In this document: one piece after another, positions 40,090-41,755 of the stretch
Layout of the letters: each line of letters begins with the position of its first letter
Position numbering within the stretch: position 1 is the stretch's first letter
NCBI RefSeq assembly: GCF_004365965.1
Contig: NZ_SOEB01000010.1
Location: 62,001 to 126,000 of the forward strand
Direction: 5' to 3'
Length of the DNA: 64,000 bases
Source of the DNA: Rhodovulum visakhapatnamense
GTDB lineage: Bacteria > Pseudomonadota > Alphaproteobacteria > Rhodobacterales > Rhodobacteraceae
Notes under the pieces: model-generated
Databases searched by the model: none
What the model was told of the DNA's origin: nothing
The model's input: only the letters and a program-made list of their open reading frames with translations
Position numbers and translations under genes: made by a program

Positions 40090-40710
40090 ATGACCCGTCT
40101 TCTTCCCGGCATCCTTGCCATGGCCGCCATCGTCGTGGCCTCGAATATCCTCGTCCAGGTGCTGTTCGGCCAATGGCTGACGCTGGGCGCCTTCACCTAT
40201 CCGCTGGCCTTTCTCGTGACCGACGTGATGAACCGCGTCTATGGCGTGGCCGCCGCCCGCCGCGTGGTCCTGGCGGGCTTCGTGGTGGGGGTGATCTGCT
40301 CCTTCATCGGCACCCAGATCCAGGGCGAGTTCGGCCCGATCGTCACCCTGCGCATCGTCATGGGGTCAGGCCTGGCCTTCCTCTGCGCGCAACTGCTGGA
40401 CGTGGCGGTGTTCGACCGGCTGCGCGCGGGCCGCTGGTGGCGGGCGCCGCTGGCCTCGACCCTGATCGGGTCGAGCGTCGATACGCTGGTCTTCTTCAGC
40501 GTCGCGTTTTCCGGAACGCTCAGCATGCTGGAGCCCGCCAATGACGTGTCCTGGGCGGGTGAGATGCTGCCGCTTCTGGGGGTCGGACCGCAGGTGCCGC
40601 TGTGGGTTTCGCTGGCGCTGGCGGATTGGTGCGTGAAACTTGCCCTCGCCTTGATCGCGCTTGTGCCATTTCGCTTAATTGTTAGGCGTATGACCGCACA
40701 GCTTGCGTGA
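40090..40710 (+). CDS. Queuosine precursor transporter (YhhQ/QPTR)
   Basis: A 206-residue inner-membrane protein with about six hydrophobic helices and the family motif YPLAFLVTDVMNRVYG, plus ADWCVKLALALIALVP near the end. It imports preQ0/preQ1 for queuosine tRNA modification. ATG 40090 is 69 bp after the previous stop; that gap was checked for a preQ1 riboswitch and nothing convincing was seen. Downstream is the unusual RNA-like interval. Confidence 0.88.
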   Translation: MTRLLPGILAMAAIVVASNILVQVLFGQWLTLGAFTYPLAFLVTDVMNRVYGVAAARRVVLAGFVVGVICSFIGTQIQGEFGPIVTLRIVMGSGLAFLCAQLLDVAVFDRLRAGRWWRAPLASTLIGSSVDTLVFFSVAFSGTLSMLEPANDVSWAGEMLPLLGVGPQVPLWVSLALADWCVKLALALIALVPFRLIVRRMTAQLA

Positions 40711-40779
40711 ATTAACTGGACTTATACCAGATCTGTGGCAGGCTGAACTCAACGGCAACAGCAGAAAGGAGGTGGTCCA

Positions 40780-40836
40780 GTGTCTAGAGTGATATTGGAG
40801 AAGGGTCTTGGAACAGTCAGGGGGGCCGTGGTCTGA
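40780..40836 (+). CDS. 18-codon GTG mini-ORF behind an extreme Shine-Dalgarno
   Basis: A GTG at 40780 lies 6 bases after AGGAGGT; the whole stretch 40763-40778 pairs with the 3' end of 16S rRNA (16 positions, one G-U). The frame reads VSRVILEKGLGTVRGAVV and stops at TGA 40834-40836. It uses AGA, ATA, TTG, AGG, CTT, GGA and ACA, rare in this GC-rich window, so it is either a leader-type peptide or not translated at all. In the folded RNA the Shine-Dalgarno is sequestered. Confidence 0.35.
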   Translation: MSRVILEKGLGTVRGAVV

Positions 40837-40905
40837 GGGCAATCCCTGAGACTGAAATCTTCTGATTGGGCCCACGCTCTAACCGGGCCATCTCCGTAGC
40901 TCTCG

Positions 40906-40930
40906 GGGCCGTTCGCAAGAACGGCCCTTT
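40906..40930 (+). terminator. Intrinsic terminator of the RNA candidate
   Basis: Perfect 9-bp stem GGGCCGTTC/GAACGGCCC with a stable GCAA tetraloop, then TTTCCGTTT. It separates the RNA candidate from arfB. Confidence 0.8.
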
Positions 40931-41014
40931 CCGTTTCGTCCTCTCGGCCCATGATGGGGCAGGCCGGGGCCGTCATGCTCTTGCGTCCTGCGACCACCGC
41001 GATAGGGTCCCCCC

Positions 41015-41437
41015 ATGCTGCGCATCACCGATACTGTCGCCCTTGCGGACTGGGAACTGACCGAGGTGTTCTCGCGCTCCTCCGGCCCCGGCGGGCAGAA
41101 CGTCAACAAGGTCTCGACCGCGGTCGATCTGAGATTCGAGGCCGAGCGGTCTCCGAACCTGCCCGGCCCGGTCAAGGCGCGTCTGAAACGGCTGGCGGGG
41201 CGGCGCTGGACCCAGGATGGCGCGGTGCTGATCCGGGTCGAAGAGACCCGCAGCCAAGCCCGCAACCGCGAGATTGCCCGCGAGCGGCTGGCCGAGCTGA
41301 TCCGGAAGGCGCTGGAAAAGCCCAAACGGCGGGTGCCGACCCGGCCCACGCTGGGGTCGCAACGTCGGCGGCTTGCGGCCAAGAAGGAACGCGGCGCGGT
41401 CAAGGCGCTGCGCGGTACCATTGCACCGGACGACTGA
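41015..41437 (+). CDS. arfB: Alternative ribosome-rescue factor B (peptidyl-tRNA hydrolase ArfB)
   Basis: A 140-residue release-factor-like protein with the catalytic GGQ in RSSGPGGQNVNKVST and a basic C-terminal tail (KPKRRVPTRPT ... RLAAKKERGAVKALRG) that inserts into the empty mRNA channel of stalled ribosomes. It releases nascent chains when mRNA lacks a stop codon. Length and both domains match ArfB/YaeJ. ATG 41015 is 84 bp after the terminator of the RNA candidate. Confidence 0.93.
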   Translation: MLRITDTVALADWELTEVFSRSSGPGGQNVNKVSTAVDLRFEAERSPNLPGPVKARLKRLAGRRWTQDGAVLIRVEETRSQARNREIARERLAELIRKALEKPKRRVPTRPTLGSQRRRLAAKKERGAVKALRGTIAPDD

Positions 41438-41467: not shown

Positions 41468-41755
41468 TCAGTCTACCGGATTGCACCGGTACTTCCGGGC
41501 CGGATTGGTCTCTGCCGCCCGGCTTGCGATTTCAGCGCACGCGGCGGCGTCGCCGGGGTCCGCGACTCCGAAAATGAGGGCAAGCTTCTCCCAGTGTCCG
41601 AATACGTTCTGCATCTCCAGCCAGCACCCTCCGTCGGTCAGAGGACTGGTTCGGGCAAACGCGATGAGCGCGCCGAGGTCGTCTTCCTGGTCGTCTGCCG
41701 GCGCAGGCAGTGCCTGAAGGAAGATCAGGGCTATAAGTCCAGCGTGAATTCTCAT
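41468..41755 (-). CDS. Small secreted Cys-containing hypothetical protein
   Basis: A 95-residue protein with a clear signal peptide (MRIHAGLIALIFLQALPAPA) followed by an acidic mature start (DDQEDD) and three Cys (in GGCWLEM, AAACAEI and KYRCNPV). The ribosome site GAGGAGG stands ahead of the ATG. I do not recognise the family. Base composition is less GC-rich than most neighbours. It lies convergent to arfB (30-bp gap) and 80 bp from the serB end. Confidence 0.65.
   Translation of the reverse strand: MRIHAGLIALIFLQALPAPADDQEDDLGALIAFARTSPLTDGGCWLEMQNVFGHWEKLALIFGVADPGDAAACAEIASRAAETNPARKYRCNPVD

Follow-up and report, generated by a model that had tools for sequence, protein, structure and literature searches.

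A predicted RNA of about 180 nt in Rhodovulum visakhapatnamense is, judged by covariance-model alignment, a divergent full-length relative of the Caulobacter small RNA CC2171 (Rfam family RF01867). On balance, and with some reserve, we favor the view that it is a translation-gated structured RNA in which the 16S rRNA tail of an incoming 30S ribosomal subunit meets competition from a mimic of that tail within the RNA. The case is built on what can be read from the sequences themselves, namely family membership, a promoter and terminator in Rhodobacterales, pairing potential, covariation, and selection on the start and stop codons of a mini-ORF. If the switch is real, Alphaproteobacteria, a class with symbionts, phototrophs, and marine bacteria among its members, would possess a compact, natural readout of free 30S subunits, and an orphan Rfam small RNA would become a widespread, translated, ribosome-gated RNA. 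The analyzed stretch of DNA, 64,000 nt from contig NZ_SOEB01000010.1 (positions 62,001 to 126,000), is referred to as the window, and its relevant features are collected in Table 1.

Table 1. Features of the CC2171-like element and its surroundings, in window coordinates
Feature	Positions	Strand	Basis
Vut_1 (YhhQ-like) transporter, upstream neighbor	40090..40710	+	PF02592, 5e-29
Sigma-70 type promoter (predicted)	40717..40744	+	-35 TGGACT 40717-40722, -10 CAGGCT 40739-40744
Whole predicted RNA, about 180 nt, divergent CC2171-family member	40750..40930	+	cmscan RF01867 and conservation
Extended Shine-Dalgarno (SD)	40763..40780	+	18 bp with 16S tail, one G-U; core once per genome in 18 genomes
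SD core GGAGGUG, 5' side of SD/anti-SD helix	40768..40774	+	7 core pairs kept
Start-codon hairpin, 40776-40784 with 40791-40799	40776..40799	+	97.4% paired cells, 34 Rhodobacterales sequences
Mini-ORF (putative)	40780..40836	+	GTG start, 18 codons, TGA stop, VSRVILEKGLGTVRGAVV
Rod stem, 40814-40822 with 40860-40868, enclosing stop-codon hairpin	40814..40868	+	6/9 pairs changed on both sides
Anti-SD (16S-tail mimic), 3' side of SD helix	40885..40895	+	duplex search
Intrinsic terminator, 40905-40928 in the MFE structure	40905..40930	+	98.7% paired cells; 7/9 pairs changed on both sides
arfB, downstream neighbor	41015..41437	+	RF-1 domain PF00472, 2.1e-20

A divergent branch of the CC2171 family

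At the Rfam gathering thresholds, nothing in the window was matched. With an E-value threshold, cmscan aligned RF01867 to positions 40756-40927 (36.2 bits, E 3.3e-6, below the 75-bit cut-off) over the whole model (positions 1-159 of 159); in this alignment, the terminator stem is kept, and the long-range stem contains many non-standard pairs. A preliminary description of this DNA could assign no known family and had proposed such an Rfam search, which supplied the assignment. Apart from the full-length alignment, the window RNA and CC2171 have similar lengths, a terminator, and the 5' block CAACA...GAAAGGAGGUGrUCCAGUGUCU in common. CC2171 is typed as a small RNA gene by Rfam, whereas in the window RNA the mini-ORF and the 16S complementarity are among the most constrained parts; furthermore, the Rhodobacterales SD, unlike that of CC2171, pairs directly with an anti-SD arm.

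The same description had made its case depend on conservation beyond this strain, and this is found: the element is kept in all 15 genomes of the genus that were searched and across many Alphaproteobacteria. The RF01867 model has matches in 45 of 190 alphaproteobacterial genomes, seven of them above the cut-off, with scores that form a continuum from 90 down to below 30 bits. Copies from Bosea (88.5 bits) and Methylobacterium (89.9 bits) pass, and those tested from Rhodobacterales, Sphingomonadales, Bradyrhizobium, and Mesorhizobium are excluded by the cut-off, a point on which the annotation should be corrected. A scan of GTDB with GAAAGGAGGTGRTCCNDTGTC returned at least 119 stretches; among the matches listed, nearly all are alphaproteobacterial (Rhodobacterales, Rhizobiales, Sphingomonadales, Acetobacterales, and Caulobacterales). 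A sequence-only model of the 33-nt 5' block (E below 1.3e-4) detected the element in about 95 of 385 alphaproteobacterial genomes, usually as a single copy; in the remaining classes of the phylum, no match exceeded 21 bits. The weak matches near 20 bits, mostly to model positions 6-24, we take to be 16S 3' ends in antisense. By these searches, the family appears largely confined to Alphaproteobacteria.

One genome (G036) is exceptional in carrying two copies of the 5' block, at C1:805105 and 2922044, where most others have one. Among the GTDB matches listed are two records with Gemmatimonadota titles (L073 and L098) that contain the 5' block and a short frame; they may reflect transfer or a binning error, or be chance matches.

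An extended Shine-Dalgarno sequence

The sequence AGAAAGGAGGTGGTCC is read directly in the window at 40763-40778 (+). It had been noted as a 16-nt match to the 16S rRNA tail, and the match proved to be longer: with the two following positions, as AGAAAGGAGGTGGTCCAG, it pairs with the tail CUGGAUCACCUCCUUUCU over 18 bp including one G-U, with a predicted duplex energy of -32.2 kcal/mol. The SD must first be released from the fold, at a predicted cost of 13.3 kcal/mol, which leaves a net -18.9 kcal/mol. The Rhodobacterales tail used here, CTGGATCACCTCCTTTCT, was taken from plasmid-borne rRNA operons; the 16S 3' end of this very genome was not found in the searchable assembly. Matches to the 16-mer with up to three mismatches are expected 0.26 times in a shuffled window, and the window holds one other, at three mismatches. 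The SD core AAAGGAGGTGRTCC was present in 18 of the 26 genomes searched, a single time in each and always at this element, so that in these 18 genomes it occurs nowhere else. Antisense of rRNA 3' ends is absent from these matches because such ends are seemingly missing from the searched genome texts.

An 18-bp complementarity that takes in the spacer exceeds the needs of initiation, and the full duplex, covering the spacer up to the start codon, may hinder initiation. Such excess, and the uniqueness of the sequence in each genome, would suit a decoy or parking RNA that holds free 30S subunits via the 16S tail with little productive translation. This is the main rival of the gated switch and a possible one, to which we assign a low probability: the start and stop codons, which are under selection (see below), would be superfluous in a pure decoy, and a decoy would have to be very abundant. 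The complementarity also reaches the end of the 16S tail, as would be expected if the RNA paired with the 16S 3' end while that end matures, or checked for a free tail. Selection on start and stop codons is left without explanation by this proposal, and we consider it very doubtful.

The mini-ORF and its peptide

As first described, the GTG at 40780 opens exactly 18 codons, up to the TGA at 40834-40836, and the frame contains codons that are rare in six neighboring genes (AGA 0.6, ATA 0, TTG 3.2, and AGG 2.6 per 1000); TCT and ACA are likewise rare there. The start-codon hairpin accounts for some of the conserved rare codons, namely ATA and TTG, which make up its 3' side. A search of 385 genomes with AAAGGAGGTGATCCNNNGTC, a pattern that fixes neither the base before the start codon nor that codon's first two bases, yielded ATG, GTG, or TTG at the start position in 55 of 55 matches. 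Codon 19 is TGA 27 times, TAG 13 times, TAA six times, and another codon once in Rhodobacterales, where the absence of TGG is significant (Fisher p 2.7e-7, uncorrected for kinship); in Sphingomonadales, it is TAA 13 times, TGA 12 times, and another codon once. Judged by these patterns, the mini-ORF is real, its start and stop being under selection even though the stop codon itself changes.

A micropeptide gene, with a product of 14-35 residues as the functional part, would equally show selection on start and stop, and the Rhodobacterales data could be taken in its favor: the peptides are similar within the order, and the in-frame synonymous fraction is raised (0.43 vs 0.28 and 0.24 in the other frames). 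Between orders, the peptides are unrelated, with 18 codons both in Rhodobacterales (VSRVILERGVGTVRG...) and in Sphingomonadales (MSHGSAERS...), 14 in Bradyrhizobium (VSYLKRCHLAGIAR), and about 20-35 in other groups, the group labels resting on peptide patterns and named records of the GTDB scan. Moreover, Sphingomonadales have a smaller synonymous fraction in frame (0.20) than in either of the other frames (0.40 and 0.49), and nonsynonymous changes dominate there. The residues that are conserved in two groups, TWIxAS and EQPS, are encoded by codons that fall on the SD partner. A conserved peptide was rejected on the grounds of this coincidence and of the order-specific sequences, and a functional micropeptide, including the self-repressed one suggested in the preliminary description, is improbable, slightly more so than the decoy.

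In two elements (L156 and L190), the same SD/start block precedes a longer frame of 56-59 codons with a secreted-protein-like beginning, MSHGASPVVAALFGLAALLTAGIANA...

A covarying rod

A stretch of 196 nt around the element folds with a minimum free energy (MFE) of -87.7 kcal/mol (z = -4.2), and none of 200 shuffled sequences was as stable; the opposite strand reaches a z of only -1.8. The predicted MFE structure contains all three of the features described earlier: the rod, the terminator, and 11 bp between 40768-40778 and 40885-40895.

Covariation was assessed on an alignment of 34 Rhodobacterales sequences. The SD/anti-SD helix, rod stem, stop-codon hairpin, and terminator have 89.1% of cells paired, and 76 cells are changed on both sides compared with 26.6 expected, a number reached in none of 500 shuffles, although neither the shuffle nor the slide control removes kinship. 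On pairing and covariation score combined, again none of 500 shuffles matched the real alignment, and sliding the helices by one column lowered the paired cells from 89% to 61% or less. All seven pairs of the SD core form in every sequence with letters on both sides, with one gap, while the 3' side alternates between G-C and G-U and between U-A and U-G. The rod is thereby supported by covariation among the aligned sequences. In the start-codon hairpin, the changes seen are compatible with pairing. That this hairpin is common to all orders was considered and rejected, as it is clear only in Rhodobacterales.

A long rod with a large bubble is shared with 6S RNA, and a 6S-like RNA binding RNA polymerase was among the roles suggested earlier. 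The 6S model RF00013 has no match in 40600-41014 even with E values up to 10 allowed; the genome has a 6S candidate at a different locus, and an ORF is under selection here, all of which makes a 6S-like function hardly credible. The candidate, G000:C24:55275-55432 (locus L186), is likely the 6S RNA of this genome, with an RF00013 score of 38 bits for a cut-off of 46.4; this group may escape the Rfam 6S model.

An internal mimic of the 16S tail

The search for duplexes between the SD and the rest of the RNA gave a z of -3.4 for the window copy and a mean of -2.0 over 44 Rhodobacterales elements. The means are -1.9 for four Bradyrhizobium-type elements, -0.9 for the 'MSS' group, and -0.7 for the 'VSH' group; in Sphingomonadales, SD sequestration is weak (mean z -0.2). 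The position of the partner differs among groups. Rhodobacterales have it near +118 to +131 (CGGCCCAUCUCC; element L018 has CGCACCUCCUUA). Where the ORF carries TWIxAS codons, the partner falls within the ORF, at +50 to +71 (UGGAUCNUCGCCUCC); the group marked by EQPS codons has it at +66 to +82 (GGAGCAGCCUCUG), and Bradyrhizobium at +44 to +57. A copy of the 16S tail is contained in CGGAUCACCUCC of element L148. In Sphingomonadales and TWIxAS ('VSH') examples, codons 2-7 stand opposite the stretch just before the terminator (CAUUGUCA / UGACAAUGG; CAUGGUUCAGC / GCUGACCAUG). Outside Rhodobacterales, the duplex energies of 5'/3' closure are not above those of shuffled sequences.

Anti-SD motifs have been described in small RNAs of Rhizobiales, where CCUCCUCCC occurs in hairpin loops and could pair with the SDs of mRNAs (PMC3927594). 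In those RNAs the motif is located in loops, whereas in the window RNA the anti-SD is predicted to pair with the RNA's own SD.

Just 5' of the anti-SD (window 40877-40886, CTCTAACCGG), a CTAACCG block is almost invariant in Rhodobacterales and is not needed for SD pairing; it could be a target-pairing or protein site.

A stand-alone gene with shifting neighbors

The predicted promoter places the expected transcript start near 40750. A strict consensus promoter scan did not report this promoter at 40717-40744. TTGAC precedes the SD by 8-70 nt in 31 of 46 Rhodobacterales elements, and 30 of these have it at 49-52 nt; among control stretches, it occurs in 27 of 540 (5%). A simple scan detected a terminator in 148 of 177 elements.

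The transporter gene is upstream in 43 of 47 Rhodobacterales elements and arfB downstream in 37 of 47; the arfB gene named in the preliminary description is confirmed by its RF-1 domain. Elsewhere, the downstream gene is often an aminotransferase of class IV (ilvE-like) in Sphingomonadales, encodes DUF188 in some Rhizobiales, and is a TMEM175 gene on the opposite strand in a Bradyrhizobium example; genomes of the Mesorhizobium type have an acetyl-CoA synthetase-like gene upstream (named by eye). Since the neighbors differ between orders, adjacency to arfB is a feature of Rhodobacterales, and the earlier suggestion of a leader, taken here as a cis-acting one for arfB, is not supported. The best reading of its organization is a stand-alone gene, usually in single copy.

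The closest published parallel to a leader or attenuator of the downstream gene is the uORF of DUF1127 in Sinorhizobium meliloti, a small ORF whose ribosome-binding site folds away, as here, and which was proposed to sense ribosome availability (PMC12218461). This alphaproteobacterial precedent, the combination of uORF and terminator, and the co-orientation of downstream genes in Rhodobacterales and Sphingomonadales would speak for an attenuator, and a translated upstream ORF, as in ribosome-dependent attenuators, is indeed suggested by the selection on start and stop codons. A conserved regulated gene directly downstream is missing: arfB, ilvE-like, DUF188, or other genes follow according to order, unrelated to one another, and the Bradyrhizobium gene is on the opposite strand. 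The DUF1127 uORF regulates its adjoining gene by premature, probably Rho-dependent, termination (PMC12218461), whereas the window RNA stands alone, with an intrinsic terminator of its own. We therefore regard an attenuator as very unlikely. Another small RNA that carries an ORF, rnTrpL of S. meliloti (14 codons, peptide peTrpL), corresponds to an attenuator (PMC10117765); unlike the window RNA, it is leaderless and tied to trpE, with an mRNA that starts at the AUG and hence has no SD.

Between arfB and the next gene, the window contains a 95-codon frame (41468-41755, -) with a beginning like that of a small secreted protein (MRIHAGLIALIFLQALPAPA...).

A proposed ribosome-gated switch

From these features, we infer that the RNA is transcribed, that the mini-ORF is translated in the cell, and that the RNA acts as a switch. 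In the free RNA, the proposed closed state would have the SD core paired with the 16S-tail mimic and the start codon in its hairpin. With 18 bp between its own tail and the SD, a 30S subunit could displace the internal pairing. The ribosome would then translate the 18 codons, for which the SD helix and the start hairpin must open, and the rod would be disturbed; the peptide would be a by-product. The balance between the closed rod and the open form would be set by the amount of free 30S subunits or by initiation capacity. As to the output, our guess is that the freed anti-SD-like arm might act on other mRNAs, or that opening might set the stability of the RNA.

Among the roles listed in the preliminary description, the ribosome-sensing or self-gated element fits best. 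More tentatively than the gating itself, we suggest that the RNA might be an alphaproteobacterial sensor of ribosome capacity: bearing both the complement and a mimic of the 16S tail, it would let free 30S subunits and the mimic vie for one sequence, and translation of an expendable mini-ORF would set the fold and free an anti-SD arm to act on other mRNAs. That one mechanism is common to all orders we infer by analogy, because of the weak SD sequestration in Sphingomonadales, the start hairpin that is clear only in Rhodobacterales, and closure energies that outside Rhodobacterales do not exceed those of shuffles.

A literature search with the peptide and DNA strings of the element gave no relevant match, and in the searchable, largely non-subscription literature neither the extended complementarity to 16S rRNA, nor the selection on the mini-ORF, nor the tail mimic was found described. 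Within this literature, CC2171 itself is mentioned in the Rfam 15 paper and in a prediction for Mesorhizobium huakuii only. For Caulobacter, Schrader 2014 states that two predicted ncRNAs are translated.
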